Assembly (NCBI GenBank): GCA_016342595.1
Contig: JAEINY010000002.1
Location: 1-64,000, forward strand
Source: Marinilabiliaceae bacterium
Lineage (GTDB): Bacteria; Bacteroidota; Bacteroidia; Bacteroidales; Marinilabiliaceae
Direction of reading: 5' to 3'
DNA: 64,000 nt
Shown here: piece by piece, positions 5,273 through 52,135 of the stretch
Position numbering within the stretch: the stretch's first letter is position 1
Layout: each line of letters begins with the position of its first letter
The notes under the pieces: model-generated
The model's input: only the letters and a program-made list of their open reading frames with translations
Databases searched by the model: none
What the model was told of the DNA's origin: nothing
Program-made: the position numbers and the translations under genes

Positions 5273-5280
5273 TACTTTTG
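5273..5280 (+). promoter_or_regulatory. putative -7 box for the FAD-dependent dehydrogenase gene
   Basis: TACTTTTG fits TAnnTTTG. The leader that follows contains CAGATC (5290-5295) and GATCTG (5312-5317), which could form a small hairpin before the ATG at 5349. No well-spaced -33 TTG is apparent. Confidence 0.4.
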
Positions 5281-5348
5281 TGGCGCTATAACAGATCGTT
5301 CTGGATGAAATGATCTGCTTGATTAAGCATTAATCTTTTTTTATATAG

Positions 5349-35872: not shown

Positions 35873-35892
35873 CCAAACAAAATCATTTCATT

Positions 35893-37074
35893 ATGAATAA
35901 AAAACATCTTCAAAGGCTCGATTTGATTTTCAAAAACGAGCATGATACCGAACAGATATTAGAAAAAGCTCTGGCACGTCCAGATGATGATTTAATTAAT
36001 GATTTAATTAGCTCAGGGCTGAAAGGTCGCGGTGGGGCTGGTTTTCCTACTGGATTAAAGTGGAAGCTTACATCTGAGGTTGAATCAGATGAAAAGTACG
36101 TGATTTGTAATGCCGACGAGGGAGAACCTGGCACTTTTAAAGATCGTGAAATACTGTCGAGTGTGCCTCACAAAGTATTGACTGGCATGGCTGTTTGTGC
36201 GCGAATCATAGGTTCCAAAAAGGGATACATCTATCTGCGAGGTGAGTACAAGTTTTTAAAACCACAGCTATTAAAAATCATTGACAATTTCCATAAGTTA
36301 TTGGATCAGTTAAACCTTAACTTCAGAGTTGAAATCTTTATGGGTAGCGGAGCCTACATTTGTGGTGAGGAGAGTGCACTGTTTGAAAGCATGGAAGGTA
36401 AACGTGGCGAACCACGTAATAAACCACCGTTTCCAACTAATAGCGGCTATCGTGGTAAGCCAACGGTTATTAATAATGTTGAAACTCTGGCACATACTTA
36501 TTCAATTTTTAAGTATGGGCCTGAAAAATTTCGTGACTTAGGAGTGCAGGATTCCAGAGGTTCTAAAGTTTTTTCTGTTTCCGGAGATACACCGATCCCA
36601 GGTATTTATGAACTGGAGTTTGGAATGACCTTACAAAAATTTGTGGAAGACTTTGGAGATGGTGATGCCAAAGCGGTTCAAGTAGGAGGAGCTTCAGGTT
36701 TTTGTGTGCCGCGTAAAAAGTTTGATAAAACAGTCATTGGTTATCAAGGTAAATTAACGGGTGCTTCTTTACCAACCGGGGGATCGATGATGATTTTCAA
36801 TTCATCCAGATCCATGTACAATGTGTTACATAATTACCTCGATTTCTTCGTGGAAGAATCCTGCGGACAGTGTACCCCTTGCCGGGTTGGAACGCAGCAG
36901 TTACTGTTAGGAATACAGGCTGTTAAGAAAGGTGAACAGTCTTCTTCTTACCTCGATAAATTGATGGAATTAGCTGAGGCCATGCGGGTGACTGCCAAGT
37001 GTGGATTGGGCCAATCAGTGGCGAATTCATTTTCGTCAATTGTCGAGAATTTCAAAGAGGAGATGATTTATTAA
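35893..37074 (+). CDS. nuoF: short NuoF-like NADH/FMN subunit of the first [FeFe] hydrogenase
   Basis: 393 residues. It contains the FMN-binding loop GLKGRGGAGFPTGLKWK, the NADH-binding motif GSGAYICGEESALFESMEG and the [4Fe-4S] site ESCGQCTPCRVG with the distal Cys in AKCGLGQ. Unlike the second HydB (47770-49563) it lacks both the N-terminal [2Fe-2S] thioredoxin-like domain and the C-terminal pair of [4Fe-4S] clusters. In electron-bifurcating hydrogenases those extra domains are normally present, so this enzyme may transfer electrons only between NADH and H2. That last step is inference. Confidence 0.9.
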   Translation: MNKKHLQRLDLIFKNEHDTEQILEKALARPDDDLINDLISSGLKGRGGAGFPTGLKWKLTSEVESDEKYVICNADEGEPGTFKDREILSSVPHKVLTGMAVCARIIGSKKGYIYLRGEYKFLKPQLLKIIDNFHKLLDQLNLNFRVEIFMGSGAYICGEESALFESMEGKRGEPRNKPPFPTNSGYRGKPTVINNVETLAHTYSIFKYGPEKFRDLGVQDSRGSKVFSVSGDTPIPGIYELEFGMTLQKFVEDFGDGDAKAVQVGGASGFCVPRKKFDKTVIGYQGKLTGASLPTGGSMMIFNSSRSMYNVLHNYLDFFVEESCGQCTPCRVGTQQLLLGIQAVKKGEQSSSYLDKLMELAEAMRVTAKCGLGQSVANSFSSIVENFKEEMIY

Positions 37075-37093
37075 TTCCAAAAATCGAATTACG

Positions 37094-38884
37094 ATGGCTG
37101 AAAAAATTAATTTACGTATAGATAATATAGCAGTTAGTGTGGATGAAGGATCCACCATTTTAGAAGCTGCTAAGAAAATAAATATTCGCATCCCAACATT
37201 ATGTCATCACGAGGATCTGTGTGTGGCAGGTAATTGCCGTGTTTGTGTTGTAGAACAGGCAGGTAGTGACCGTTTATTACCTTCTTGTGCCATGCCTGTT
37301 TCGGAAGGGATGGAAATTATGACTAACAGCTTAAAAGTGCGTAAAGCGCGTAAAGAAGTGATTGAATTGTTGGTGAGTGAGCACAGGGCTGAATGCACCC
37401 GTTGTTATAAAAATGGATCCTGTGAACTTCAGGAATTGTCTTCTGAGTACATTGTAGGCGAAAACGGTTACATTGATCTGATTCCATTTAAAAATCTAAC
37501 AATTGACCATTTCTCACCTTCTATTATAAAAGATGACAGCAAATGTATCCGTTGTCAAAGATGTGTACGTACCTGTTCGCAGTTACAAAACATTAGTGCC
37601 TTAACAGTGGCATATAAAGGGGAGGAGATGAAAATTTCTACCTTTTTTGAACGCCCCATGTACGAAGTGGTCTGTACTAACTGTGGTCAGTGCGTAAGTC
37701 GCTGCCCAACAGGAGCGTTGACTGAAAAGACATACCTTAATGAAGTGTGGTCGGCCATTCATGCCGAAGGTAAACATGTGGTTGTGCAAACAGCTCCTGC
37801 CGTGCGTATAGCGTTGGGGGAAGCCCTGGGTATGCCTCCGGGCGAAATTGTAACGGGTAAGCTGGTTTCTGCTTTACGTCGTTTAGGATTTGATTCTGTT
37901 TTGGATACTGATTTTACGGCCGATTTAACCATCATTGAAGAAGGTAATGAGTTACTTCAGCGCTTGAAGAAGGCTTTGGTTGATAAAGATCCAACGGTCA
38001 AGTTGCCCATGACAACATCTTGTTCTCCTGGATGGGTGAAGTTTATAGAACATGCTTTTCCAGAGTTTTTGGGTAATGTATCCACTGCTAAATCACCACA
38101 GCAAATGTTTGGGGCACTTGCAAAAACATTTTATGCCAATAAGTTGGATATTGATCCGGAAACGATGGTCAGTGTGTCAATTATGCCTTGTACAGCAAAA
38201 AAATATGAAGCCGCACGCCCGGAGATGCGAAGTAGTGGCTATCAGGATGTGGATTATGTATTAACAACCAGAGAGCTCGCTCTTATGATTAAACAAGCCG
38301 GTATTGATTTCTTCTCCTTGCCAGATGATGAATACGATAGTATTATGGGTGAATCTTCAGGTGCTGCTGTTATATTTGGTGCTACAGGAGGGGTGATGGA
38401 AGCTGCTCTGCGTACTGCTTATGAAGTAGTGACTGGACGCGAAGTTCCGTTTGAGGGATTGAATATTACGCCGGTTCGGGGCATGGAGTATATTCGCGAA
38501 GCAGCAGTTAAAATTGATAATGTATTGCCTGAATGGAGTTTTCTGGAAGGTGTAGAATTGAAAACATGCGTCACTCACGGGTTAAGTAACGCCAAAAAAG
38601 TGATGGAGGCGGTTCGCGATGGAAAAGCAGATTATCATTTTATTGAGGTAATGGCTTGTCCAGGTGGATGCTTAGGTGGCGGAGGTCAGCCAATTCCTAC
38701 TTCTGCAGAAATACGGAAACGGCGTAGTGAAGCCATTTATCAGGAAGACTCCCTTAAGCCGATTCGCAAATCACATGAGAATCCTGAAGTTATCCATATT
38801 TATAAAGAATACCTGAAAGAACCGTTAGGTCATAAGTCGCATGAACTATTACATACGACTTATAAAGAGCGTAACCGTTATTAA
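37094..38884 (+). CDS. hydA: [FeFe] hydrogenase catalytic subunit HydA (first)
   Basis: 596 residues: N-terminal [2Fe-2S] domain (Cys in TLCHHEDLCVAGNCRVC), a His-ligated [4Fe-4S] site (EHRAECTRCYKNGSC), two [4Fe-4S] clusters (CIRCQRCVRTC and CTNCGQCVSRC), the H-cluster domain and a small-subunit-like tail (SHENPEVIHIYKEYL). H-cluster motifs are L1 TSCSPGW (C310, S311), L2 IMPCTAKKYE (C366) and L3 EVMACPGGCLGGGGQP (C522, C526). S311 replaces a cysteine that is a [4Fe-4S] ligand in the canonical TSCCPGW. It closes the nuoE-nuoF-hydA operon, and its terminator lies in the convergent gene. Confidence 0.93.
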   Translation: MAEKINLRIDNIAVSVDEGSTILEAAKKINIRIPTLCHHEDLCVAGNCRVCVVEQAGSDRLLPSCAMPVSEGMEIMTNSLKVRKARKEVIELLVSEHRAECTRCYKNGSCELQELSSEYIVGENGYIDLIPFKNLTIDHFSPSIIKDDSKCIRCQRCVRTCSQLQNISALTVAYKGEEMKISTFFERPMYEVVCTNCGQCVSRCPTGALTEKTYLNEVWSAIHAEGKHVVVQTAPAVRIALGEALGMPPGEIVTGKLVSALRRLGFDSVLDTDFTADLTIIEEGNELLQRLKKALVDKDPTVKLPMTTSCSPGWVKFIEHAFPEFLGNVSTAKSPQQMFGALAKTFYANKLDIDPETMVSVSIMPCTAKKYEAARPEMRSSGYQDVDYVLTTRELALMIKQAGIDFFSLPDDEYDSIMGESSGAAVIFGATGGVMEAALRTAYEVVTGREVPFEGLNITPVRGMEYIREAAVKIDNVLPEWSFLEGVELKTCVTHGLSNAKKVMEAVRDGKADYHFIEVMACPGGCLGGGGQPIPTSAEIRKRRSEAIYQEDSLKPIRKSHENPEVIHIYKEYLKEPLGHKSHELLHTTYKERNRY

Positions 38885-38886: not shown

Positions 38887-39723
38887 TTAATCACATAAAA
38901 TGTATAAATCCTTTCTTGGATTGACGCAAAATACCGGGACTTGTTCCCGGTTTTTTATGACTTTTAATTCAGGAGGGCCAATTATTTCTTCTTCCGGACC
39001 GTAGTGTTTAGTGGTACAGATCATAACAATGCCTTTTTTATCGCCGTGAGCCAATTGCAAGGCTTCTTTGGTAATACCAAAACTATTTTTTGAGGAATTC
39101 AAAACTTCATAATCAAGATTAAACTGGTCAAAAAGTTTCTTTGTAAACAAAATATGTGCCATCACACGTGCGCACGCCGTCGAATCCGATTCCCTGGCTT
39201 TGATCACTTTTATCCTTGAATTATTAAATCGACCAAAGTAGCTGGCCCAAATCAGTTTTTCCTTTTCTTCTTTTCTGAAACCAATTGGTAAATAAATGAC
39301 ATTTGATTGTTCAGGGTGTGGTTCCTGAGAGTGAACCATTAAAAAGGGCATTTTAAACTGTTTGGTTTCTTTCATGAATTGAACATCCTTATAAAAGCGA
39401 AGCCTGGAGTTCTTTTCCATCGCAATTATAATGCTGGCAGCTTCAATTTCATCCGATGTTTTCTTGAGGATTGGCATGAGTATCCCCTGTTCAACTATAC
39501 AAAAAATGCGAGGTGTTTGCGCTGATGAAAAGGATTGTTTGATCTTTTCTAGTCTGATGTTTGTGCTGTTTATATGCTCATCAGTGATGTTATCAGTAAC
39601 AACAGCCAGCAAGGTGATGTCCTTATTGAAAGCTTTTGCTATTAGTTTTCCGTGTTCAATAGCAATTTTATCCTTATCAGAAAATGTGATAGGGATAAGA
39701 ATGTTTTGTCTATGGTGATTCAT
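38887..39723 (-). CDS. universal stress protein (UspA family)
   Basis: 278 residues with two UspA-like halves. The start NILIPITFSDKDKIAIEHGK followed by LIAKAFNKDITLLAVV is typical of the first domain, and the second ends GIVMICTTKHYGPEEEIIGP before VPVFCVNPR. The nucleotide-binding G-x2-G-x9-G motif is not obvious, so it may not bind ATP. It is wedged between the two hydrogenase operons, convergent with the first and divergent from the second, which suggests expression under the same fermentative conditions. Confidence 0.75.
   Translation of the reverse strand: MNHHRQNILIPITFSDKDKIAIEHGKLIAKAFNKDITLLAVVTDNITDEHINSTNIRLEKIKQSFSSAQTPRIFCIVEQGILMPILKKTSDEIEAASIIIAMEKNSRLRFYKDVQFMKETKQFKMPFLMVHSQEPHPEQSNVIYLPIGFRKEEKEKLIWASYFGRFNNSRIKVIKARESDSTACARVMAHILFTKKLFDQFNLDYEVLNSSKNSFGITKEALQLAHGDKKGIVMICTTKHYGPEEEIIGPPELKVIKNREQVPVFCVNPRKDLYILCD
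38933..38956 (+). terminator. terminator of the first hydrogenase operon, inside the convergent gene
   Basis: ACCGGGA pairs with TCCCGGT followed by six T, 48 nt after the hydA stop. It lies within the 3' coding part of the minus-strand universal stress protein gene. Confidence 0.75.
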
Positions 39724-39939: not shown

Positions 39940-40194
39940 ATGGAAACCAAACATGATATCACAATTTGTCTTGGAAGTTCTTGTTTTTCAAGAGGTAATA
40001 AGACTATATTAGAAATAGTGAAGAATTTTTTGAAGGAGCATGATTTGAATGGTGAAGTTTTTTTTCACGGTGATTTATGTGGGGGCCACTGTGATGAAGG
40101 ACCTGTATTGATGATTGATAAGCAGATGTATAAGCAGGTTAGCAGTGATAATATTTATGATATATTAAATGAATTTTTCGAAATTAGTGTGTAA
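39940..40194 (+). CDS. thioredoxin-like [2Fe-2S] ferredoxin-type protein
   Basis: 84 residues, a stand-alone version of the NuoE C-terminal domain. The four cluster ligands are in CLGSSCFSRGN and DLCGGHCDEGPV. It lies 18 nt before the hydrogenase-like PAS sensor gene and is probably its electron partner. Small proteins of this kind are commonly encoded beside sensory-type [FeFe]-hydrogenase homologues. Catalysis on its own is not expected. Confidence 0.85.
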   Translation: METKHDITICLGSSCFSRGNKTILEIVKNFLKEHDLNGEVFFHGDLCGGHCDEGPVLMIDKQMYKQVSSDNIYDILNEFFEISV

Positions 40195-40212
40195 TTAATT
40201 TGTCTTGCTATT

Positions 40213-42066
40213 ATGGGTCAGCTAATTGTATCAGATAAGGAGAAGTGTAATTTAAGTTATACTTGCGTGAGAGTATGCCCGGCAAAAGCTATTAAAATTG
40301 CTGATAAGCATGCACAAATTATACCGGACCGGTGCATCGGTTGTGGGCATTGTGTTACCATGTGTTCGCAGCATGCCATTCATTACAGAGATGAAAAAAG
40401 TAAGACCAAAGGTTTTTTAGAGGGGAGTGAACGCGTGGCAGCAATTTGCGATCCTGCCATTTCCGGAGAGTTTTCAGATATTACGGATTACCGCAAGTTT
40501 GTAGCCATGATTAGGGCACTAGGCTTTGATTTGGTCACTGAGATGGCTTTTGGGGTTGATCTGGTGGCTATCAAATACAAGGAGTTGTTGGATTCTTTTC
40601 AAGGAAAATATTTTATCTCCTCTAAGTGCCCACCTGTTATTAAATATATTGAGAAGATGCATCCGGATATGGTTGAAAATCTGGCACCCATTGTGCCACC
40701 TTTTATTGCCATGTCTAAAGTAATTCGAAAAAAATATGGACACGATCAAAAGGTCGTTTACATTACTGCCTGTACAGCTTCTAAGGATGATGTAAAGGCT
40801 TTTACGCAAACGGATGGACAAATAGATTCTGTTATAACGTTTGTTGAATTGCGTGAATTATTTGCAGAACATGGCATTAAAGAGAGTTCTGTTGAATTTA
40901 GCGATTTCGATCCTCCTTTAGGCCGAAAAGGAGGACTTTTTCCCATTAGTCATGGCCTTTTTCAGGCGGTGGATGTGAATCAGGATTTATTGGAAGCAGA
41001 TATCCTGATTACCGAAGGGCGCACTAATTTTTTACAATCCATTAAAGAGTTTCGAAGTGAAGTGGAGTTGAAGCAACACCTGGATCTGTTTTATTGCAAG
41101 GGTTGTATTATGGGACCCGGAGCTTCCAAAGGTGGAAAAAAATTCATGCGGCGCTCGCAAGTCATTAAATATGTGAGCAAGCGGATGAAAGACATTGATT
41201 GTGATCAGTGGCGAGACGATATTGATAGATATAAAGACCTGGACTTAACACGTGCTTTTCGATCAATGGATCAACGTTTGCCATATCCGCCCGAAGATCA
41301 GATTCAACAAGTGCTGGTTGATATGGGTAAAACGAAAGAGGAAGATATGTTAGGTTGCGGAGCTTGTGGATATCCTACTTGTAAAGAGTTTGCTGTGGCC
41401 CATTTACAGGGGCTGACTGAATATGAGCAGTGCTATACCTACACAATAAAAAAAATGCACACTTACATTAGCAAAGTAAATGCGGCCAATGATAAATTGA
41501 AAAGAACGCAGGAGGCTCTGCAAAACAGTGAAGAAAAGGCTCGAATAGAGGAGTTGGCAGCTCGTGAAGCGGCAGAAACCACTACTTCAATGCTTAATAA
41601 AATTCGGGCTGGAGTGGTGATAGTGGATAAGGATTTAAAGGTATTAGAATCCAATAACCATTTTATTGATATGTTGGGTGAAGATGCCCGGGAAATCGCC
41701 GAATTAGTACCTGGCTTAAAAGGTGCTGAACTAACCAGTTTGTTGCCTTTTCATCGGTTGTTCTCATCAGTATTAAAATCAGGGCAGGATGTTTTGAACC
41801 GCGATTCACCCTACGGTAATTCCATTTTAAATGTCTCTGTATTTACTATAAAAAAGAACCAGGTGGTAGGTGGTATTATTCGGGATTTGATTACTCCTGA
41901 GGTGCGTCGTGAGGAGGTCATTACGCGTGCACGTAATGTAATACGTGAGAATCTGGAAACCGTTCAACAGATCGCATTTCTTCTGGGTGAAAGCGCTTCT
42001 AAAACGGAGAAAACCTTGAATAGTATTATTCAGGCTCAAAAATTAGGTTTAGACGATGAATCCTGA
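40213..42066 (+). CDS. hydrogenase-like iron-sulfur sensor with PAS domain (HydS type)
   Basis: 617 residues. Domain order: two ferredoxin-type sites (1-55; the first reads CNLSYTCVRVCP with Ser at one usual Cys, the second CIGCGHCVTMC is complete), an [FeFe]-hydrogenase large-domain homologue (about 70-340), an FeS/4Fe-4S module (CGACGYPTCKEFAVAH), a coiled linker, and a PAS domain (MLNKIRAGVVIVDKDLKVLE onward) with a conserved helical tail. Hydrogenase motifs are altered: K138-C139 where CC is expected, C187 in TACTASKDD, and C295-K-G-C298 instead of CxxxC. It is probably a redox or H2 sensor and not an enzyme. Its stop overlaps the PP2C start by 11 nt, indicating tight coupling. Confidence 0.88.
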   Translation: MGQLIVSDKEKCNLSYTCVRVCPAKAIKIADKHAQIIPDRCIGCGHCVTMCSQHAIHYRDEKSKTKGFLEGSERVAAICDPAISGEFSDITDYRKFVAMIRALGFDLVTEMAFGVDLVAIKYKELLDSFQGKYFISSKCPPVIKYIEKMHPDMVENLAPIVPPFIAMSKVIRKKYGHDQKVVYITACTASKDDVKAFTQTDGQIDSVITFVELRELFAEHGIKESSVEFSDFDPPLGRKGGLFPISHGLFQAVDVNQDLLEADILITEGRTNFLQSIKEFRSEVELKQHLDLFYCKGCIMGPGASKGGKKFMRRSQVIKYVSKRMKDIDCDQWRDDIDRYKDLDLTRAFRSMDQRLPYPPEDQIQQVLVDMGKTKEEDMLGCGACGYPTCKEFAVAHLQGLTEYEQCYTYTIKKMHTYISKVNAANDKLKRTQEALQNSEEKARIEELAAREAAETTTSMLNKIRAGVVIVDKDLKVLESNNHFIDMLGEDAREIAELVPGLKGAELTSLLPFHRLFSSVLKSGQDVLNRDSPYGNSILNVSVFTIKKNQVVGGIIRDLITPEVRREEVITRARNVIRENLETVQQIAFLLGESASKTEKTLNSIIQAQKLGLDDES

Positions 42067-43246
42067 TAATAAGTTTTTTATAGATATCGAATGTCGCCAG
42101 AATAATCATGTGGGAGAACTCATTTGTGGTGATGTCTTTTTATCCCGCCGTATAAAGGAAGAGGGGCGAACAGTAGTAGTACTTTCAGATGGGATGGGCA
42201 GTGGTGTGAAAGCGAATGTTTTAGCTACATTAACAGCTTCCATGGCCATTAATTTTACGGAGGAACATCGGGAAGTTCAGAAGATAGCTGAGATTATTAT
42301 GAATACACTACCAGTGTGTAGTGTACGGAAGATGAGCTACAGTACCTTTACGATAATAGATATTGAGGACGATGGGACCACCACCATTGTCGAATATGAT
42401 AATCCCTCATGCTCAGTGATGCGTGGTAATCAAATATTTGATCCAGGCTGGGAAGAGATTGAAATGGAAAGTGATAGTAATAAAGGAAAGAAATTACATA
42501 CCTGTAAATTTAAGGCACTTAAAGAAGATCGAATATTCTTTTGGACAGATGGGATTGCACAATCTGGAATGGGATCTAAAGCATTACCATTTGGTTGGGG
42601 GCGTGAAGAAATGGAAAATTACGTTCAGAAAATAGTTAAATACACCCCATTTGCTTCGTCTGGAAAATTAGCTCAGAAGGTTGTCAATATTGCCTGTTTG
42701 CACGATGGTGATAAGCCCAAAGACGACTCTTCTTGTGGTGTTATTTATTTTAGAGAACCGCGTAAGTTATTGTTGGTTTCCGGCCCCCCCTTTGAGGATA
42801 AAAATGATTTTGATTTTTCACTAAAAGTCAGTCGATTTAAAGGGAAGCGGATTATTGCCGGTGGAACGACTGCTGAAATTATTGCACGGGAGCTAGCTTT
42901 GAGATTTGATGCTGGTATGGATTCAGAAGACCCTGATCTACCTCCCGTATCATATGTAGAAGGGATGACTCTGGTCACAGAAGGAATTTTGACTTTAGGG
43001 AAAGTGTCTAAATTGTTAGAACATTATCATAAGGACACACGACTAGGCAATGGTCCTGCTGATCAAATTATTAAGTTGTTGTTGGAAAGTGATAAGATTC
43101 ATGTGTTGAATGGTACCAGAATTAATGTTGCGCATCAAGATCCGAATTTGCCAATTGAGTTGGAAATTAGACGGACTGTTATTAAACGTATTGTAAAATT
43201 ATTGGAGGAAAAATTTCTCAAGGAGGTGGATGTAGAGTACATGTAG
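42056..43246 (+). CDS. SpoIIE/PP2C-type serine phosphatase
   Basis: 396 residues. The phosphatase domain has the metal-binding text VVLSDGMGSGVKANVLATLT and a late acidic pair in KPKDDSSCGVIYF, as in SpoIIE and RsbU-type PP2C phosphatases. About 150 further C-terminal residues (RKLLLVSGPPFEDKNDFDFS onward) form an additional domain typical of phosphatases encoded next to sensory [FeFe]-hydrogenase homologues. It is translationally coupled to the PAS sensor, so the phosphatase is the likely output of that sensor. Its phosphoprotein substrate, classically a STAS-domain protein, is not in the window. Confidence 0.88.
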   Translation: MNPDNKFFIDIECRQNNHVGELICGDVFLSRRIKEEGRTVVVLSDGMGSGVKANVLATLTASMAINFTEEHREVQKIAEIIMNTLPVCSVRKMSYSTFTIIDIEDDGTTTIVEYDNPSCSVMRGNQIFDPGWEEIEMESDSNKGKKLHTCKFKALKEDRIFFWTDGIAQSGMGSKALPFGWGREEMENYVQKIVKYTPFASSGKLAQKVVNIACLHDGDKPKDDSSCGVIYFREPRKLLLVSGPPFEDKNDFDFSLKVSRFKGKRIIAGGTTAEIIARELALRFDAGMDSEDPDLPPVSYVEGMTLVTEGILTLGKVSKLLEHYHKDTRLGNGPADQIIKLLLESDKIHVLNGTRINVAHQDPNLPIELEIRRTVIKRIVKLLEEKFLKEVDVEYM

Positions 43247-43524
43247 TAATAATTTGTTAGTAGTATGATAAAAATCATCACCCTCAACTTTCTTATGGAT
43301 TGAAGTAAAGGTGTTAAGTATTCCTTATAAATTGAAAGAAGCCCCTTTTTTATTATCGCAATGTGTAGCCTGTTAATTTAGATTTGATATATATTAACAA
43401 AAAGAAACAAACGTGCTTTTTTTTTTCGCCTGAATACTATTCATTTGTAATGAATTCGGGAAAATTTTCTTTAATACTTGAGTTAAAAAGTGTTGAAAAT
43501 TTTAAAGAAACTAAGTAATCGTTA

Positions 43525-43869
43525 ATGGAAATAAGAAAAATTACTGAAGTTCTGGATGCCAAGGTGATTTGTGGTGAGGAATATCTGGATCGTGGCATTG
43601 AATGTGGTTTTGCCAGTGACCTGATGAGTGACGTTTTAACACTCGATTCAGAGCATTTGGTGCTCATCACTGGATTAGCCAATATGCAAGTAGTGCGAAC
43701 GGCTGAAATGGCTGATATATCTTGTGTTCTATTTGTACGTGATAAAACAGCCACTCCTGAGATGATAAACATAGCCAGCGAAAATAATATGGTTTTGCTG
43801 GAATGTCGCTATTCAATGTTTAAAACGATTGGGATGTTGCACGATGCTGGTTTACAACCAGTATATTGA
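43525..43869 (+). CDS. DRTGG domain protein (first)
   Basis: 114 residues, a stand-alone DRTGG domain (LDRGIECGFASDLMSDVLTL; ITGLANMQVVRTAEMADISC). The domain is known as a linker or regulatory module, often near CBS domains and phosphotransacetylases, and may bind a nucleotide; its role is not established. A 278-nt spacer before it holds short palindromes (ATTCATTtgtAATGAAT and GAAAATTTTC) and may contain a promoter. It is 12 nt upstream of an HATPase gene. Confidence 0.8.
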   Translation: MEIRKITEVLDAKVICGEEYLDRGIECGFASDLMSDVLTLDSEHLVLITGLANMQVVRTAEMADISCVLFVRDKTATPEMINIASENNMVLLECRYSMFKTIGMLHDAGLQPVY

Positions 43870-43881
43870 TGACCGGGCGCG

Positions 43882-44298
43882 ATGGAATTTAAATACGAAG
43901 TAGAAGGTGGCAACTTTACCAAAGCAGGTAATGCAGCTAGCGCAGTTAAGAAAGTATTGAAGCAGCTCAACGTAGATCCCAAAGTGGTGAAACGTGTAGT
44001 TGTTGCTCTTTATGAAGGTGAGGTTAATGTGGTGGCACATGCCTACAAAGGTCAAATATTGGTCGACATTGATCCATCGCGTATTGTGATTCGCATAGAG
44101 GATCAGGGACCTGGTATTCCTGATATTGACCTGGCCATGCAGGTTGGATATTCAACTGCTTCGGCCATGGTGCGTGAAATGGGATTTGGTGCTGGTATGG
44201 GGTTGCCTAATATGAAGCGAAACGCCGATTCTTTAACTGTTTCAAGTAAAGTGGGCGAAGGTACCACTGTTGAACTTATTACCAATTTAACTACTTAA
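43882..44298 (+). CDS. HATPase_c anti-sigma-factor-like serine kinase (RsbW/RsbT type)
   Basis: 138 residues, a stand-alone GHKL ATPase domain. The N-box is ALYEGEVNVVAHAYKG, G1 is IEDQGPGIPD and G2 is GFGAGMGLPNMKRNAD. There is no histidine-phosphorylation domain, so it resembles the serine kinases of partner-switching systems that oppose PP2C phosphatases. It lies 15 nt before the second hydrogenase-like protein. Confidence 0.87.
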   Translation: MEFKYEVEGGNFTKAGNAASAVKKVLKQLNVDPKVVKRVVVALYEGEVNVVAHAYKGQILVDIDPSRIVIRIEDQGPGIPDIDLAMQVGYSTASAMVREMGFGAGMGLPNMKRNADSLTVSSKVGEGTTVELITNLTT

Positions 44299-44313
44299 AT
44301 CGCTGAATCAGGA

Positions 44314-45690
44314 ATGGATAAAGAGCAATTTTATCATGCATTGGAAGTGGACAAAGAGCTATGTTATGGGTGTACCCATTGTATGACAGTTTGTCCGACC
44401 AACGCCATTCGCATCCATGACGGTGTGGCCTCCATACGCAAAAACTGGTGTGTGGATTGTGGGGAGTGCATGAAAGCTTGTCCGGTAGATGCCATCTATG
44501 TAGAGCAGGATGACTTTGCCAAAATATTCAACTACGATGAGCGTGTAGCTATTCTACCTTCTGTATTTATAGGCCAGTTTTCAAAACAGATTGCTGAGTC
44601 CGAAATAATTGATGTTCTTCAGGAGCTTGGGTTTACGCATGTTATTCCGGCCGAGGCAGCTGTGGAGGTGATCAATGAATCCATGTTGGAGGAATTTAAT
44701 GACGATCGGGAGAAACCATTAATAAGTCCGTTTTGTCCAGCTATTGTTCGATTGATTCAAGTGAAATTTCCAGGCTTGGTTAATAACATCATTCCAATAA
44801 AACCACCTATCGATACTTCAGCAGTATATTTCCGTCAACGACTGATTGATGAAGGGAAAGACCCTGAAAAAATAGGAATTTTTTACGTCACACCATGTGC
44901 TGCTAAAATTGCAACAGTTAAAAATCCGGTTGGTGAAGACACGTCTTATGTTGATGGCGTTATTAATATGGATTTTCTTTATAATAAAGTGTACCACGTA
45001 TTAAAAACCAAGGATTTAGTAAAAGCCCAAGAGACAGATGAGAACATGAACTTATCGTCTAAAGGTTTAATATGGAGTTTAACAGAAGGAGAAGCTGATC
45101 ATATGAAAGGGCGCTGTCTGGCCATTGATGAAATTCACAATGTGATTTCTTTTCTTGAGAAAGTGGAGAATGATGAAATTGTAAATGTCGATTTCCTGGA
45201 ATTGAGGGCTTGTGATCAGAGTTGTGCAGGTGGTGTATTGTTGTCGGAGAACCGTTTTCTAACGGTTGAGCGACTTAAAACTCGAGCACGTCGTTTGGAA
45301 GAGGCTGGTAAAAAAGCACCGGTTATTGAAAAGAAATATCAATCTTATATCAAAAAGCAGTTAAAAGTAGGGAAAGTTGAGCCCCGTTCAATGATGGTTT
45401 TGGATGAGGATATGGGCGTAGCTTTGAAGAAAATGGAACGGGTACGTCGTATTATGAGTTTTCTTCCGGGGATTGACTGTGGAGCCTGTGGAGCTCCCAA
45501 CTGTGAAAGTTTAGCTGAAGATATTGTACGCAAAGAAGCCCATTTATCTAATTGTGTTTTTTTGCAGCGGATGATGGAGAAAAAACGCAAAATAAGTCCA
45601 GAGCGTTCCATTCGAATTATTGAAGAAACGTGGGGAAAGGATCGATTGGATAACGATTATAACAAAAAGAACCCTAACAATGAAAGTTAA
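44314..45690 (+). CDS. second hydrogenase-like iron-sulfur protein with FeS domain, no PAS
   Basis: 458 residues. Two complete ferredoxin clusters (CYGCTHCMTVCP and CVDCGECMKACP), then a hydrogenase large-domain homologue, then a C-terminal 4Fe-4S module with CGACGAPNCESLAEDIV. Its motifs are F140-C141 where the canonical enzyme has CC, C195 in VTPCAAKIA, and L3 with C300-x3-C304 (RACDQSCAGG), so the four cluster cysteines are kept but the proton-transfer cysteine is lost. It is probably a redox sensor or an electron carrier to the HATPase and DRTGG proteins around it. It overlaps the next gene by 11 nt. Confidence 0.86.
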   Translation: MDKEQFYHALEVDKELCYGCTHCMTVCPTNAIRIHDGVASIRKNWCVDCGECMKACPVDAIYVEQDDFAKIFNYDERVAILPSVFIGQFSKQIAESEIIDVLQELGFTHVIPAEAAVEVINESMLEEFNDDREKPLISPFCPAIVRLIQVKFPGLVNNIIPIKPPIDTSAVYFRQRLIDEGKDPEKIGIFYVTPCAAKIATVKNPVGEDTSYVDGVINMDFLYNKVYHVLKTKDLVKAQETDENMNLSSKGLIWSLTEGEADHMKGRCLAIDEIHNVISFLEKVENDEIVNVDFLELRACDQSCAGGVLLSENRFLTVERLKTRARRLEEAGKKAPVIEKKYQSYIKKQLKVGKVEPRSMMVLDEDMGVALKKMERVRRIMSFLPGIDCGACGAPNCESLAEDIVRKEAHLSNCVFLQRMMEKKRKISPERSIRIIEETWGKDRLDNDYNKKNPNNES

Positions 45691-46012
45691 CGATATAGTT
45701 GAAAAACTAAACCTAAAAGTATTTAGTGGTAAAGAAGGTCTTGATAGGGAGGTGACTGGTGGATATACTTCTGACCTATTAAGTGATGTGATGGGGAATG
45801 CCGATGAAAGTCAGCTTTGGGTCACCCTGCAAACACATCGTAATGTGATGGCTGTTGCTTCGTTAAAAGAGGTCGCAGCGGTGATTATTGTAAAAGGATT
45901 AGAGCCCGAAGAAAATACCATGAGTCAAAGTAATGATGAGGGTATTCCTTTGTTGGGTACTGATCTGGAAACTTTTGAAATATCTGGTAAGCTATACGAG
46001 CTTTTGAAATAA
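45680..46012 (+). CDS. DRTGG domain protein (second)
   Basis: 110 residues from the ATG at 45680, which overlaps the preceding stop. It has the classic DRTGG pattern (GLDREVTGGYTSDLLSDVMG, LWVTLQTHRNVMAVASL). It is a paralogue of 43525-43869 and again sits beside an HATPase and a hydrogenase-like protein, so the two DRTGG proteins may have matched partners. Confidence 0.83.
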   Translation: MKVNDIVEKLNLKVFSGKEGLDREVTGGYTSDLLSDVMGNADESQLWVTLQTHRNVMAVASLKEVAAVIIVKGLEPEENTMSQSNDEGIPLLGTDLETFEISGKLYELLK

Positions 46013-46016
46013 TGGG

Positions 46017-46760
46017 ATGAACCGGTATAAAGCTGATTTGCATATTCACTCTGTATTGTCACCATGCGGGAGCTTGGAGATGAGTCCTCAGATGATTGTT
46101 GATGCGGCCCGGACAAAAGGATTGGATGTGATTGCCATTACTGATCACAATTCAACTCGACAATGTAAAGTGGTGGCTCAGTTAGCTAAAAAGGAAGGGA
46201 TAATGGTTCTTTGCGGTGCTGAAGTAACTACACGAGAGGAAGTGCATTGCGTGACGCTCTTTGAAAGTTTTGAAAAATTGGATGCCTTTCAAGTTTATCT
46301 GGATCAACATCTTCCTGAAGTGAAAAACAATCCCGATGTATTCGGACATCAGGTTTGGGTCAATGCAAAGGAAGAGATTATGGGCCAGGAGGACCGCTTG
46401 TTAATCAGTGGTTTGAATCAAACTATCGAGGAGGTGCAGGCTAAGGTACATGAGCTCAACGGGTTATTTGTTTTGGCTCATGTGGATAAAAAACGGTTTA
46501 GTATTTATAGTCAATTAGGGTTTTTGCCTTTTGATTTATCTATAGATGCAATGGAAATCAGTCCTTTGGCAAAGGTAGGTGAGTTGGTGAAAAAACATCC
46601 CGAAATTAAAAACTACGTGCTGTTGCGTTCGTCAGATGCACATATGCCGGATCAAATTGGTCAACGGTATACTGAGTTTCTGATGGAGGAGCTTTCTTTT
46701 GATGAGATTAAACTAGCGCTGCGACAAGAAAACGGCAGAAAAACAGAAATCGGAAATTAA
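46017..46760 (+). CDS. PHP domain metal-dependent phosphoesterase
   Basis: 247 residues with the PHP motifs ADLHIHSVLSPCG (two metal-binding His), ITDHNSTRQC, GAEVTT and HVDKK, and a late RSSDAHMPDQIG. This matches the TrpH/YciV-like PHP phosphoesterases that act on nucleotides such as pAp or on short RNA, but the substrate here is unknown. The overlapping operon position suggests that it processes a signal or nucleotide bound by the neighbouring DRTGG and HATPase proteins. That is inference. Confidence 0.85.
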   Translation: MNRYKADLHIHSVLSPCGSLEMSPQMIVDAARTKGLDVIAITDHNSTRQCKVVAQLAKKEGIMVLCGAEVTTREEVHCVTLFESFEKLDAFQVYLDQHLPEVKNNPDVFGHQVWVNAKEEIMGQEDRLLISGLNQTIEEVQAKVHELNGLFVLAHVDKKRFSIYSQLGFLPFDLSIDAMEISPLAKVGELVKKHPEIKNYVLLRSSDAHMPDQIGQRYTEFLMEELSFDEIKLALRQENGRKTEIGN

Positions 46761-46767
46761 TAGAATA

Positions 46768-47313
46768 ATGAAGGATTTGTCGATGCACATTATGGATATT
46801 GTTCAAAACTCAGTGCGAGGGAAAGCGCATTTGGTGCAAGTGACAATAGTTGAAAAAGGCGAAGATTTGATCATTCATGTGGAAGATGATGGAACGGGAA
46901 TGGATGCGGAAACGCTAGCGAAAGTAACCGACCCGTTTTTTACATCGCGTACCACTCGAAAAGTTGGATTAGGCATTCCGCTAATTAAACAGAATGCAGA
47001 GCAAACGGATGGGAAGTTAGATCTTACTTCAGAGTTGGGGAAAGGTACCATATTGAGAGCGATATTCGGACGCTATCATATTGACCGACCACCAATGGGT
47101 GATATTCCTGGTACAATGGCTCAGTTAATCTCTGGAAATTCGGAACTGGACTTTGTGTTTAGCTATGAGAAAGATGGGGAAACCTATCGTTTAGATAGTC
47201 GCGAAGTGAAAGAGATTTTAGGGGATGTGGACATTCGTCTGCCCAAAGTGGCCAATTTTTTAAAACAAATGATTGACGAGAATTTAAAGGAAATTAAAGT
47301 AGAGTATAACTAA
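46768..47313 (+). CDS. HATPase_c domain protein (histidine-kinase-like ATPase, second)
   Basis: 181 residues. The GHKL ATPase starts MHIMDIVQNSVRGKAHLVQV, with VEDDGTGMDAETL as G1 and DPFFTSRTTRKVGLGIPLIK as F/G2 box, more like a histidine-kinase catalytic domain than RsbW. There is no DHp domain or receiver. A ~70-residue tail (YEKDGETYRLDSREVKEILG) follows. It is the last regulatory-type gene before the second hydrogenase. Confidence 0.85.
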   Translation: MKDLSMHIMDIVQNSVRGKAHLVQVTIVEKGEDLIIHVEDDGTGMDAETLAKVTDPFFTSRTTRKVGLGIPLIKQNAEQTDGKLDLTSELGKGTILRAIFGRYHIDRPPMGDIPGTMAQLISGNSELDFVFSYEKDGETYRLDSREVKEILGDVDIRLPKVANFLKQMIDENLKEIKVEYN

Positions 47314-47349: not shown

Positions 47350-47757
47350 ATGACAAAAGTAAAATCGCTTAACGACCTCAAGAAGATGAGGGAGGAGCTG
47401 CAAGCTAAGGTGACGTTGCGCGAAAAAAGTGACCATCCTGATAAGTTGGTTCAGGTGAAGGTTTCGATGGCTACCTGCGGAATTGCATCAGGTGCTAAAG
47501 AAATCATGAACTACTTTATTGAGGAGTTGGATCATCGTGCCGTTGAAGCCATCGTAACTCAAACGGGTTGTATGGGTTTCTGTCATGCTGAACCAACCAT
47601 TGAAGTTATTTTGCCGGGTGAGGCATCTGTTGTTTTTGGTCATGTTGACATTAAAAGGGCTGATGAAATCATTGAAAAATACATCAAAGGTGGTGAGCTG
47701 GTGGATGGAATCATCCCGGTAAATTATGAAACCGTTAAAGAGAACAAAAACGAATAG
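47350..47757 (+). CDS. (2Fe-2S) ferredoxin-like accessory subunit of the second hydrogenase
   Basis: 135 residues. After a ~35-residue helical start, a thioredoxin-like domain carries cluster ligands in MATCGIASGAKEI and QTGCMGFCHAEPTIEV; the first pair has one fewer obvious cysteine than NuoE. It is found just upstream of hydB in many [FeFe] hydrogenase operons. It lies 12 nt before hydB. Confidence 0.83.
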   Translation: MTKVKSLNDLKKMREELQAKVTLREKSDHPDKLVQVKVSMATCGIASGAKEIMNYFIEELDHRAVEAIVTQTGCMGFCHAEPTIEVILPGEASVVFGHVDIKRADEIIEKYIKGGELVDGIIPVNYETVKENKNE

Positions 47758-47769
47758 TTTTTTTACGCT

Positions 47770-49563
47770 ATGGCTAAATATAAAAATCATATCCTGGTAT
47801 GTGGTGGCACGGGGTGTCGTGCGTCGCAAGGAGAAGAGATTGTGCAAAACCTGAACCAGACCATCGAGGATAATGGATTGGAAAGTGAAGTTCAGGTCGT
47901 AAGAACCGGTTGTTTCGGTTTTTGTGAAAAAGGTCCTGTCGTGAAGATGGTACCTGATAACACATTTTATGTGCACGTAACACCTGAAGATGCTGGTGAA
48001 ATTGTGGCTGAGCACTTGATTAAGGGGCGCCAGGTTGAGCGTCTGTTATATATTGATCCGGAAACCAACCAGGTTGTTTCGGAATCAAAAGACATGGGTT
48101 TTTACAAAAAGCAAATTCGGATTGCTTTGCGTAATTGTGGATTCATCAATCCTGAAAATATTGATGAGTACATTGCCCGTGAGGGTTATGCTGCCCTTGG
48201 TAAAGCATTAACAGAGATGTCTCCTGAAGAAGTGATCAAAGTGATCATGGACTCCGGCTTGCGTGGTCGTGGGGGAGGTGGATTCCCAACTGGGTTGAAA
48301 TGGGAATTGACACGTAAGGAAACAGCAGATCAAAAATATGTAGTCTGTAATGCTGATGAGGGTGACCCGGGTGCATTTATGGATCGTTCCATCCTGGAAG
48401 GTGATCCGCATGCTGTATTAGAAGCCATGGCGATCAATGGTTACTGTACAGGTGCTGATAAAGGGGTGATCTACATTCGTGCAGAGTATCCTTTGGCCAT
48501 AACGCGTTTGAAAATTGCCATTGAACAAGCGCGTGAATATGATTTGTTAGGCGAAAATATCTTCGGTTCTGGTTTTAGCTTTGACGTGGAGATTCGTTAT
48601 GGTGCCGGTGCTTTTGTTTGTGGTGAAGAAACAGCCTTGATTCACTCCATGGAAGGGTTGCGTGGCGAACCGACTGTGAAACCTCCATTCCCCTCAGTAA
48701 GCGGTTACAAAGAAAAACCAACCAATGTAAATAACGTTGAGACCTATGCTAACATTCCGGTGATCTTATTGCAAGGTGCCGAATGGTTCAGTTCTATCGG
48801 TACTGAGAAAAGTAAAGGAACCAAAGTGTTCGCTTTGGCCGGTAAAGTAAATAATGTTGGTTTGATTGAAGTGCCTATGGGTACCACACTGCGCGAAGTT
48901 ATTTTTGACATCGGTGGTGGTATCAAAGATGGTAAGAAATTCAAATCTGTTCAAACAGGTGGTCCCTCAGGTGGATGTTTGACTGAGAAACACCTGGATA
49001 TTCCAATTGATTACGATAGTCTGTTGGCCTGTGGTTCCATGATGGGATCAGGTGGTATGATTGTGATGGACGAAGATGATTGCATGGTATCAATGGCCAA
49101 ATTCTACCTCGACTTTACAGTTGAAGAGTCCTGTGGAAAATGTGCCCCTTGTCGGATCGGTAATAAGCGTTTGTATGAGATGCTGGAAAAAATAACCGAA
49201 GGAAAAGGTACCATCGAAGATTTAGCTCGCTTAAGAAACTTGAGTGGTGTGATTAAAGACACTTCTCTTTGTGGTTTGGGACAAACATCTCCTAACCCGG
49301 TGTTGTCAACCATGGACAATTTTTGGGAAGAGTATGAAGCTCACGTGAAGGATGGTCAGTGTCCGGCTGGTCAGTGTAAAGCATTAATGCAATACACCAT
49401 TAGTGATGAGAAATGTGTCGGTTGTACTCTGTGTTCACGCGTTTGTCCGGTAGATGCCATCACTGGTGATAAAAAAGCAGCTCATGTGATTGATCAGGCT
49501 ATCTGTATCAAGTGTGGCGCTTGTATGGAGAAATGTAAATTTGGCGCCATCACAGTGCAGTAA
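47770..49563 (+). CDS. hydB: HydB, NADH/FMN subunit of the second [FeFe] hydrogenase (bifurcation type)
   Basis: 597 residues: N-terminal thioredoxin-like [2Fe-2S] domain (CGGTGCRASQ, GCFGFCEKGP), FMN loop LRGRGGGGFPTGLKWE, NADH motif GAGAFVCGEETALIHSMEG, [4Fe-4S] site ESCGKCAPCRIG, and two C-terminal [4Fe-4S] clusters (CVGCTLCSRVCP and CIKCGACMEKCK). This full domain set matches HydB of electron-bifurcating HydABC enzymes such as that of Thermotoga maritima, which couple NADH plus reduced ferredoxin to H2. Compare the short NuoF at 35893-37074. Confidence 0.93.
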   Translation: MAKYKNHILVCGGTGCRASQGEEIVQNLNQTIEDNGLESEVQVVRTGCFGFCEKGPVVKMVPDNTFYVHVTPEDAGEIVAEHLIKGRQVERLLYIDPETNQVVSESKDMGFYKKQIRIALRNCGFINPENIDEYIAREGYAALGKALTEMSPEEVIKVIMDSGLRGRGGGGFPTGLKWELTRKETADQKYVVCNADEGDPGAFMDRSILEGDPHAVLEAMAINGYCTGADKGVIYIRAEYPLAITRLKIAIEQAREYDLLGENIFGSGFSFDVEIRYGAGAFVCGEETALIHSMEGLRGEPTVKPPFPSVSGYKEKPTNVNNVETYANIPVILLQGAEWFSSIGTEKSKGTKVFALAGKVNNVGLIEVPMGTTLREVIFDIGGGIKDGKKFKSVQTGGPSGGCLTEKHLDIPIDYDSLLACGSMMGSGGMIVMDEDDCMVSMAKFYLDFTVEESCGKCAPCRIGNKRLYEMLEKITEGKGTIEDLARLRNLSGVIKDTSLCGLGQTSPNPVLSTMDNFWEEYEAHVKDGQCPAGQCKALMQYTISDEKCVGCTLCSRVCPVDAITGDKKAAHVIDQAICIKCGACMEKCKFGAITVQ

Positions 49564-49602
49564 TCACTTAGAACTAGTTTTGAACAGTAAATTGATAAGA
49601 GA

Positions 49603-51369
49603 ATGGAAATCGTTCAAATAACCATAGATAATAAACCGGTAGTTGTCGAAAAAGAAACTACCATTCTGGAAGCAGCCAAGTCTATTGGGATTAATATTCC
49701 CAGCTTGTGCTACATGAAGCTGGAGGATACCAATTTCGAGAACAAACCAGGCGGTTGTCGGGTGTGTGTTGTGGAGGTGGAAGGGCGTCGTAATCTGGCA
49801 CCGGCTTGTAAGCAAAAGTGTGAAGAGGGTATGGTCGTGAATACGCATTCGGTGCGTGTGATCAATGCCCGTCGTACGGTGATGGAGCTGATTTTGTCAG
49901 ATCATCCCTTCGACTGTTTAATTTGTGCTAAATCGGGTGAGTGTGAGCTTCAAACACTGGCTCAGGATTTAGGAATACGTGATGTTCATTATAGAGGAGA
50001 GCAGTCACATTACAAAGGCGATGAGTCACCGGCTATAATCCGTGATATGGATAAGTGTATCATGTGTCGTCGCTGTGAAACAGCTTGTAACGAGGTACAG
50101 ACCGTTGGTGTGCTTTCTGCCATCAATCGTGGATTTGAATCTGTTGTGGCTCCGGCCTTCGAAATGGATCTGGATCACTCTACCTGTACTTTCTGTGGTC
50201 AGTGTGTGGCTGTTTGTCCAACAGGTGCTTTAACCGAGCGTGACAGTACCTGGAAAGTGATGGATGCCATCGTTGATCCAACTAAAACAGTGATCGTTCA
50301 GACTGCCCCTGCCGTGCGTGCCGCTTTAGGTGAATCATTTGGTATGGAAGCTGGTTCATTGGTAACCGGTAAAATGGTGTCTGCTTTGCGTAAATTAGGT
50401 TTCGATCATGTATTCGATACTGACTTTGCTGCCGATTTAACCATCATGGAGGAGGGTACTGAATTGTTAGGTCGTTTAGGTAAATTCCTGGCCGGTGATA
50501 AAGATGCTAACTTACCAATCCTGACCTCTTGTTGTCCGGCATGGGTGAATTTCTTTGAGTACAACTTCCCTGAGATGAAAGATGTGCCATCTACCGCTAA
50601 GTCGCCTCAACAGATGTTTGGTGCCATTGCTAAAACATACCTGGCTGATAAATTGGGTAAAAAACGTGAAGATGTAGTGGTTGTTTCGGTAATGCCTTGT
50701 TTGGCTAAGAAATACGAGTGTTCACGTGATGAATTCAAAACAGATGGTGATCCGGAAGTTAACTTGTCGATCTCAACACGTGAGTTGGCGCAGATGATCC
50801 GTAATGCTAACTTGAATTTCGCGTCATTAGCTGATGAGGATTTCGATCAGCCAATGGGTGAGTCAACAGGTGCATCTGTGATCTTTGGTACAACAGGTGG
50901 TGTAATTGAAGCTGCTGTGCGTACGGCTTACGAAGTGCATACTCAAAAAACATTGGAAAGAGTGGATTTTGAAGAGCTGCGTGGTATGGAAGGTATTCGC
51001 CAGGCGACCATCGACTTTGATGGTTTGCCAATTAAAATTGGTATCGCTCACGGCTTAGGAAATGCCCGTAAGTTACTGGAAGACATTAAAGCTGGTAAAT
51101 CAGAATTTCATGCTATTGAAATCATGGCATGTCCTGGTGGATGTATTGGTGGTGGCGGTCAGCCTTATCACCACGGAAATGTTGAGGTCTTGAAAAAACG
51201 TCAGCGTGCCATCTACGAAGAGGACCGTAATAAAGTGTTGCGTAAGTCGCATGAGAATCCCTTCATTACAAAACTATATGAAGAGTTCCTGGGCGAGCCT
51301 TGTGGACACAAATCACATGAATTATTACACACGCATTATTTCGATAAGAAAAAGAAGATTGAAATTTAA
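49603..51369 (+). CDS. hydA: [FeFe] hydrogenase catalytic subunit HydA (second)
   Basis: 588 residues: [2Fe-2S] domain (CRVCVVEVEGRR region), His-ligated cluster (DHPFDCLICAKSGEC), two ferredoxin clusters (CIMCRRCETAC, CTFCGQCVAVC), the H-cluster domain and the small-subunit tail. H-cluster motifs are canonical: L1 TSCCPAW (C310, C311), L2 VMPCLAKKYE (C366), L3 EIMACPGGCIGGGGQP (C510, C514). It is therefore a fully competent group A enzyme. A 140-nt repeat-containing spacer separates it from its NuoE-like subunit. Confidence 0.95.
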   Translation: MEIVQITIDNKPVVVEKETTILEAAKSIGINIPSLCYMKLEDTNFENKPGGCRVCVVEVEGRRNLAPACKQKCEEGMVVNTHSVRVINARRTVMELILSDHPFDCLICAKSGECELQTLAQDLGIRDVHYRGEQSHYKGDESPAIIRDMDKCIMCRRCETACNEVQTVGVLSAINRGFESVVAPAFEMDLDHSTCTFCGQCVAVCPTGALTERDSTWKVMDAIVDPTKTVIVQTAPAVRAALGESFGMEAGSLVTGKMVSALRKLGFDHVFDTDFAADLTIMEEGTELLGRLGKFLAGDKDANLPILTSCCPAWVNFFEYNFPEMKDVPSTAKSPQQMFGAIAKTYLADKLGKKREDVVVVSVMPCLAKKYECSRDEFKTDGDPEVNLSISTRELAQMIRNANLNFASLADEDFDQPMGESTGASVIFGTTGGVIEAAVRTAYEVHTQKTLERVDFEELRGMEGIRQATIDFDGLPIKIGIAHGLGNARKLLEDIKAGKSEFHAIEIMACPGGCIGGGGQPYHHGNVEVLKKRQRAIYEEDRNKVLRKSHENPFITKLYEEFLGEPCGHKSHELLHTHYFDKKKKIEI

Positions 51370-52038: not shown

Positions 52039-52135
52039 ATGATTTTTTATGAATCTCAGATGTAACAAAGTAGCATTCCCTTTGTAAAAGGGCCTTATGG
52101 GAACAGTTATAACGAGATACATTGAAAAAGTCAAC

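Follow-up and report, generated by a model that had tools for sequence, protein, structure and literature searches.

Introduction

Sensory [FeFe]-hydrogenases (HydS) are well studied at their metal site, signal relay being the part that is unanswered, and a 2026 study of TamHydS from Thermoanaerobacter mathranii ends by asking for the interaction partners of these proteins (PMC13104023). Group C sensors beside group A3 hydrogenases are already known, for example in Hydrogenedentota (PMC11406978), and published descriptions place hfsB and hfsC of Thermoanaerobacterium with the PAS-HydS and phosphatase kinds (PMC5707799, PMC11837493). Deletion of hfsA or hfsB in T. saccharolyticum led to higher ethanol yield and adhE expression, with hfsC and hfsD being required, results that the authors attribute to regulation (PMC5707799). 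The present analysis concerns nine genes at 39940–47313 of contig C133 of a Marinilabiliaceae bacterium (genome total 6.76 Mb). Bases 1–64000 of this contig are referred to as the window, and at this locus Carboxylicivirga and other Marinilabiliaceae-like bacteria are its nearest named relatives.

The nine genes form two blocks, each with a hydrogenase-like sensor of its own. On balance, we lean towards reading the stretch as a two-sensor redox or H2 control locus for the flanking hydrogenases, with a phosphorylation kernel made of an ATPase (HATPase 1) and a DRTGG protein (DRTGG1) in the second block. A wider proposal is possible and is put forward tentatively: the second block may be a portable cassette for bifurcating HydABC-family enzymes, namely a STAS-free DRTGG-HATPase partner switch (phosphosite Ser35) with an exchangeable input, mostly a group D sensor and otherwise a CBS pair. 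It would supply the signal path that is missing for group D hydrogenases and be common to FeFe-, NiFe- and pterin-linked enzymes of Bacteroidota and Bacillota.

Two Modules with Different Partners

An earlier, sequence-only reading of this DNA had described nine consecutive genes, and all nine open reading frames (ORFs) are indeed present on the forward strand with the domain types then given. The Pfam and NCBIfam domains are, in gene order, PF01257; Fe_hyd_lg_C with the FeS domain PF04060; SpoIIE PF07228; DRTGG; HATPase_c_2; Fe_hyd_lg_C with PF04060; DRTGG/Hpr_kinase_N; PHP; and HATPase_c. Since a gap of 278 nt separates the PP2C gene from that of DRTGG1, the genes constitute two blocks and not one. 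Module 1 (39940–43246) encodes a [2Fe-2S] protein, a PAS-bearing HydS and a SpoIIE-type PP2C, and module 2 (43525–47313) encodes DRTGG1, the SpoIIAB-like HATPase 1, a 458-aa HydS, DRTGG2, a PHP protein and HATPase 2. Spacing inside both blocks is operon-like, with gaps of 4 to 18 nt except for two overlaps of 11 nt, one of which joins the 617-aa HydS gene to that of PP2C, in agreement with the translational coupling suggested for this pair.

The doubled architecture seen by the same reading is better described as a group C-like module followed by a group D module, which have different partners and a different distribution. Tandem duplication was considered and rejected, as the halves share only the ferredoxin, H- and cluster domains while partners, PAS and distribution differ. 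The blocks are two different modules, separately inherited.

The Group D Sensor and Its Gene Set

By its sequence marks, the 458-aa protein is assigned to the group D (M2e, TamHydS-type) sensory [FeFe]-hydrogenases. The motifs Cx2Cx4Cx16C and CxxxC are present in 98/98 sequences (here and in the HydS, HATPase 1 and DRTGG counts below, sequences were assigned by best BLAST hit and not deduplicated), with no PAS or further domain. In the numbering of CpI, which follows PMC8163306 for C299, M353 and M497, the four ligand Cys are canonical (YVTPCAAK, SPFCP, RACDQSC), a hydroxyl residue, Thr, replaces M353, and C299 is lost. TamHydS shares with it the two N-terminal 4Fe-4S motifs, the H-domain, Cx2Cx4Cx16C, the absence of PAS, the hydroxyl residue at M353, the loss of C299 and a gene that lies upstream of hydABC and next to that of a histidine-kinase-like ATPase (PMC8163306, PMC13104023). 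For the neighbours of TamHydS, the available text names no more than a HATPase-like protein and an AraC regulator, whereas the window holds a recurrent gene set and an attached group C-like module. TamHydS is also a slow yet active hydrogenase that is still regarded as sensory (PMC8163306), so that activity of the hydrogenase-like proteins as H2 enzymes, proposed earlier as a refutation, would not speak against sensing.

The gene set was followed through a collection scan of species genomes, in which 516 loci were confirmed and the 80 best of them analysed. By title these 80 belong to Bacteroidota, mostly Bacteroidales or its families, with one Chitinophaga and one Sphingobacteriia; several loci (among L021–L036 and L054–L071) come from the same genomes, and Bacillota examples were drawn from plasmid-collection records only. 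Neighbours were counted within a distance limit, the denominator being the loci with room. Group D HydS is accompanied by DRTGG1 in 76/76, HATPase 1 in 77/77, DRTGG2 in 79/79, PHP in 79/79 and HATPase 2 in 71/75 loci, the last being absent or beyond the limit in L092, L101, L116 and L128 (in L116 it is present further off). Hydrogenase genes are close by in most loci (hydC 65/72, hydB 58/65, hydA 58/64), in line with the proposal that hydrogenase-derived sensors stand beside bifurcating-type hydrogenases. The genes of module 1 are found upstream less often (PAS-HydS 18/69, PP2C 18/72), so the module 2 set is more widespread than the joint locus of the window. DRTGG1 and HATPase 1 are nominated as candidate signalling partners of group D sensors, a poorly understood sensor class, because they lie beside the sensor in every examined locus with room and are fused in two genomes.

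Within the same family, 25 of 36 relatives strongly match the 458-aa protein and 11 do not. Sixteen of the 25 family loci were inspected (L021–L036), and 14 carry PAS-HydS and PP2C directly upstream of DRTGG1, with an upstream hydA1 also visible in 10 of these 14; one of them, L034, shows no HATPase 2 or hydCBA within the stretch retrieved. Of the other two, L028 is cut by a contig end and L036 lacks HydS-PP2C upstream of DRTGG1. The family relatives and the wider Bacteroidota loci exclude an arrangement peculiar to this genome, and the earlier remark that it is unusual in a Bacteroidota does not stand, with module 2 recurring in both.

The association with HydABC extends further, with variation. 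In Subdoligranulum variabile (Bacillota), one row holds DRTGG1, HATPase 1, group D HydS, DRTGG2 and PHP, and a divergent row holds NuoE, HATPase 2, hydC, hydB and hydA. All six module 2 genes occur with hydCBA in three of the deeper loci (L166, L169, L170) and without it in a fourth (L165). Parabacteroides (five named loci and the P. distasonis record NZ_OY725779) likewise shows module 2 without hydCBA in the stretches retrieved, the latter being encoded elsewhere in the four genomes that were searchable. In L205–L207, the six genes lie between Hdr-like genes (by eye) and NuoE-HydC-HydB-HydA; subunits of a [NiFe] hydrogenase come next in L206 (Pfam) and L207 (by eye), the L205 stretch ending too early to show them, and the HydA of L206 has no Fe_hyd domain. 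L205, a single genome, also has a conventional-looking set of STAS, RsbW-like and PP2C genes (3044–5540, by eye), some 4.5 kb upstream of the cassette.

The DRTGG1-HATPase 1 Kernel

In all eight deeper loci (L163–L170), a DRTGG1 and HATPase 1 sequence precedes HydS, although the HATPase gene of L168 is called in one ORF listing and masked by an overlapping frame in another. The two are fused into a single polypeptide in L163 and L164 (272 and 279 aa), accompanied by DRTGG2 and HydS. Both domains pass the Pfam cut-offs in L164, while in L163 HATPase passes and DRTGG falls just short (24.2 vs 25.2 bits). NuoE and HydB come next in both. In L163, the HydA homologue (766 aa) carries pterin-enzyme domains and lacks a hydrogenase domain. 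At two further loci (L203, L204), the interval from HydB to HydA contains no HydS gene, and the HATPase 1 protein is fused to a CBS pair (CBS E ~1e-26), its ATPase part lying over the Pfam cut-off in one and under it in the other. Because DRTGG1 and HATPase 1 are never lost, are twice fused, and HydS is replaced by a CBS pair at two loci, the DRTGG1-HATPase 1 pair appears to be the kernel, with the hydrogenase-like sensor as its exchangeable input. Outside the order few genomes have this kernel: of 345 Bacteroidota genomes, counting the own one, 6 match at E 1e-20 when the fused DRTGG-HATPase serves as query.

For HATPase 1 and PP2C, comparison was made at the positions which we take to be the active-site positions of SpoIIAB and SpoIIE. 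HATPase 1 aligns to SpoIIAB, its best natural solved relative (E 2.8e-6), and E45, N49, D74, G76, G78, G103, G105 and G107 (FGAG.GL lid) are invariant in 98/98 sequences, so that the ATP site is intact and the RsbW-like HATPase of the sequence-only reading can be taken as an ATPase of the RsbW/SpoIIAB kind. DRTGG1 and DRTGG2 are families homologous to one another (hhalign 99.7%), with Asp32 and Ser35 kept in 94/94 and 98/98 sequences, respectively. The solved relatives of DRTGG are weak ones, HPr kinase, a CBS-DRTGG pyrophosphatase and AF_1212, and the DRTGG2 profile matches the first two at E 0.005–0.007. That DRTGG is a diverged STAS was tried and discarded, with an hhalign probability of 0.3% (four STAS sequences only).

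The Group C-Like Module

The 617-aa HydS is labelled only group C-like because its third ligand loop is non-canonical. In 20 of 21 sequences of its branch, the third H-cluster ligand loop is CxGC (YCKGC, one residue short) and not CxxxC, so that the four Cys are present without the canonical spacing of group C (M2f); the proton-transfer Cys (C299) is lost, loop 1 reading SSKCP. The C-terminal Cx2Cx4Cx16C is kept in 21/21 sequences (C382, C385, C390 and C407 in the window). The PAS domain claimed for this protein is partly borne out: the strand and helix order of residues 467–558 and Foldseek matches to PAS (E 1.5e-4 at best, for a low-confidence model with a mean predicted local distance difference test score, pLDDT, of 56) support it, with the modelled PAS lying after the cluster motif as in group C, but no Pfam or NCBIfam call is made at E 0.001. 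In the PP2C, the acidic positions D26, D45, D165, D223 and D224 are kept in 24/24 sequences, including two from Bacillota. By eye, PP2C and HATPase 2 may have a C-terminal tail in common.

The order of [2Fe-2S] protein, PAS-HydS and SpoIIE phosphatase is common to module 1, Ruminococcus albus 7 and Monoglobus. On plasmid pRUMAL01 of R. albus 7 the row consists of Rex, adhE, a phosphotransferase (APH match and weak protein-kinase match), two [2Fe-2S] proteins, HydS, SpoIIE and a catalytic hydrogenase. By BLAST to R. albus, HydS is 25% and PP2C 34% identical, the hfs sequences themselves not being part of this comparison. Module 1 thus shares its order with the R. albus HydS-SpoIIE-HydA2 row and with Thermoanaerobacterium hfsABCD, but it precedes DRTGG1 and not a catalytic hydrogenase, and its third loop is CxGC. 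The first three genes of an hfsABCD-type row are present in the window and the fourth, the catalytic hydrogenase, does not follow them in the row, while an entire row lies on another contig of the same genome (C21, L007, 5199–11899): a sigma-54 activator, an 87-aa [2Fe-2S] protein, a 572-aa HydS, PP2C and a group B-like hydrogenase. This HydS paralogue keeps a canonical CxxGC third loop. The sigma-54 activator gene heading the row is a candidate output regulator of the group C sensor.

The group C3 sensors beside group A3 hydrogenases (BfuT of Hydrogenedentota, PMC11406978) are comparable in that both loci pair a PAS- or kinase-bearing hydrogenase-like sensor with hydABC; unlike the window, the available text of that account mentions neither group D nor the DRTGG/HATPase/PHP set. 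In Acetoanaerobium noterae, a HydS-like protein runs on into a chemotaxis-type signalling region (L138 9977–11872, by eye).

Proposed Mechanism and Alternatives

The two-sensor reading draws on gene content, conservation, the DRTGG1-HATPase 1 fusion, the CBS-for-HydS loci and the enzyme association, all as seen in the sequences. In module 1, the group C-like HydS would sense H2 or the redox state of ferredoxin, and its PAS domain would switch the PP2C encoded by the overlapping gene. In module 2, the group D HydS would feed its signal into a small device based on phosphorylation, in whose kernel HATPase 1 would act as a SpoIIAB-like serine kinase and DRTGG1 as substrate or gate, in the position held by STAS in Rsb/SpoII switches. 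Partner-switch chemistry is plausible. The phosphosite would probably be the invariant Ser35 of DRTGG1, perhaps that of DRTGG2 too, while DRTGG2, PHP and HATPase 2, which most but not all loci have, would reset or tune the device. Its output would most likely fall on the adjoining HydABC-family enzyme or on expression of that enzyme, as the cassette tracks that family across hydrogenase types and none of the six module 2 proteins receives a DNA-binding call from Pfam or NCBIfam. In Marinilabiliaceae-type loci, the PP2C just upstream may undo the same phosphorylation, the group C-like second input bringing its own phosphatase to the same place in this family. The kinase activity of HATPase 1, Ser35 as the site and every output step are what we infer, with H2 as the signal suggested by characterised relatives.

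Several points weigh against this reading. The 617-aa HydS with its CxGC loop may not bind a normal H-cluster. The C-terminal cluster of TamHydS is not reduced under 1 atm H2 (PMC13104023), which makes the signal path from a group D sensor uncertain. Ser35 may be structural, and AF_1212, the sole alignable solved DRTGG protein, aligns there with low confidence; moreover, as DRTGG is not detectably related to STAS, its standing in the place of STAS is an analogy. Module 2 is not indivisible, since HATPase 2 is missing in L092 and L101, PHP and HATPase 2 in L163 and L164, and DRTGG2, PHP, HATPase 2 and hydCBA at L167 and L168, where only DRTGG1, HATPase 1 and HydS are left. The co-occurrence of PP2C with the core, taken up below, is uncorrected for kinship or for having any hydrogenase, and the roles of module 2 in phosphorylation, binding and expression are predictions from sequence.

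The alternative that survives best, though unlikely, is a core that works without phosphorylation, in which DRTGG and CBS domains bind nucleotide, HATPase folds bind ATP, and the whole docks on the bifurcating enzyme as an allosteric gate or assembly factor. Such a gate would suit a cassette that follows the HydABC enzyme family regardless of the third substrate, the weak DRTGG2 matches given above and a HATPase 2 without a His domain, but the core stands apart from hydCBA in Parabacteroides, L165, L167 and L168, and the catalytic Glu position of HATPase 1, E45, is invariant.

Rather less probable is a conventional partner switch, in which PP2C and HATPase 1 would be the phosphatase and kinase of a STAS-type antagonist encoded elsewhere, freeing a sigma factor or other target. 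The window shares with the Rsb/SpoIIA switches a SpoIIAB-like ATPase, which has the intact ATP site of a GHKL serine kinase, and a SpoIIE-like PP2C. The genome has five matches to PF01740, the sole STAS family searched, but all lie on contigs other than C133 and C21. No STAS antagonist or sigma factor was found with the switch-like genes; it is DRTGG1 that adjoins the kinase-like protein in every locus with room. The sequence-only reading had joined PP2C and HATPase in one switch and left its output target open. The pairing is not supported, although the co-occurrence of the two speaks in its favour. At E 1e-40, in a set of 247 genomes from the order that includes the own one, group D HydS is found in 73, PP2C in 88 and both in 57, an association above expectation (Fisher p 3e-19, uncorrected for kinship or possession of a hydrogenase). 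However, 16 of the 73 core-bearing genomes lack such a PP2C, 31 of the 88 PP2C genomes lack group D HydS, and PP2C is not adjacent in 54 of 72 loci with room. The PP2C therefore appears not to be an obligate antagonist of the HATPase core, though it may cooperate with it in the window.

For regulatory DNA motifs, the window was searched with consensus sequences which we take to be those of the Rex box and the -7 element. Rex boxes numbered 10 against 10.4 expected, and the -7 motif TANNTTTG, 74 found against 70 expected, was dropped as promoter evidence. Tuning of the NADH-responsive repressor Rex by the sensors, and of the hyd and adhE genes through it, is improbable: Rex lies between hydA1 and DRTGG1, the slot of module 1, in L109, L111, L114 (Pfam), L115 and L133, a weaker match lies further upstream in L076, L080 and L083, the R. 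albus Rex-adhE pair is upstream of HydS-PP2C-HydA2, and adhE and rex expression tracked ethanol production in hfs mutants (PMC5707799), but the five loci are set against 80, not all of which reach far enough upstream, and the window has no excess of Rex boxes.

Features of the Window

The coordinates are collected in Table 1. The enclosure by two hydrogenases proposed earlier is seen as hydCBA sets on both flanks, with one minus-strand gene interposed.

Table 1. Genes and intervals of the hydrogenase locus in the window.
Feature	Position	Strand	Remarks
First hydC-hydB-hydA set	35393..38884	+	159, 393, 596 aa; HydA1 motifs TSCSPGW / MPCTAKKYE / MACPGGC
278-aa protein	38887..39723	-	No Pfam/NCBIfam match; several relatives have a counterpart in the same place, 24-50% identity
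Thioredoxin-like [2Fe-2S] protein, 84 aa, module 1	39940..40194	+	Same gene kind precedes HydS in R. albus and Monoglobus
Group C-like HydS, 617 aa, module 1	40213..42066	+	C-terminal Cx2Cx4Cx16C and putative PAS
SpoIIE-type PP2C phosphatase, module 1	42056..43246	+	Conserved C-terminal part without family match
Gap between module 1 and module 2	43247..43524	.	278 nt
DRTGG1, 114 aa, module 2, putative kernel	43525..43869	+	DLMSDVL motif, invariant Ser35
HATPase 1, SpoIIAB-like, module 2, putative kernel	43882..44298	+	Intact ATP site: E45, N49, DxGPGI, FGAGMGL
Group D-type HydS, 458 aa, module 2	44314..45690	+	No PAS; four H-cluster Cys canonically spaced; C-terminal Cx2Cx4Cx16C
DRTGG2, 110 aa, module 2	45680..46012	+	11-nt overlap with 3' end of 458-aa HydS gene
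PHP phosphoesterase, 247 aa, module 2	46017..46760	+	Domain call
HATPase 2, 181 aa, module 2	46768..47313	+	Histidine-kinase-type ATPase domain; no dimerisation/His domain
Second hydC-hydB-hydA set	47350..51369	+	135, 597, 588 aa; bifurcating HydABC type by layout
NuoE-like [2Fe-2S] protein	51510..51983	+	3' of hydA, likewise in many relatives
HydG, H-cluster maturase	54269..55702	+	TIGR03955 over cut-off

Directly 3' of the NuoE gene lies a methyl-accepting chemotaxis-like protein (52097–53917, by eye). Besides the HydG of the window, HydF is encoded on contig C255 of the same genome. A HydA with intact H-cluster motifs is present in four Parabacteroides genomes (G061–G064; loci L072, L086, L092, L101) and in G111. 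HydG was not found by family search in G061–G064 or by protein search in G061–G064 and G111 (G111 giving only an 18-bit match), and HydF was not above cut-off in the five genomes; HydE was not searched, and this maturase gap may be an artefact. Both HydG and HydF are present in G268 and G120.

Significance

In the bifurcating HydABC/Bfu family (PMC9304861), the cassette adjoins members of the FeFe, NiFe and pterin types. That work mentions a hisK gene within the NiFe operon of A. mobile, which it does not count as part of the enzyme, and its available text does not describe the cassette of the window. A search of the open-licence literature for DRTGG combined with hydrogenase turned up only work on another DRTGG protein. 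With DRTGG1 and HATPase 1 as candidates, two or three purified proteins would be enough to put the question of partners to a direct test. If the proposal is true, a STAS-free kinase and substrate pair would govern the split of electrons among H2, NADH and ferredoxin in fermenting bacteria.

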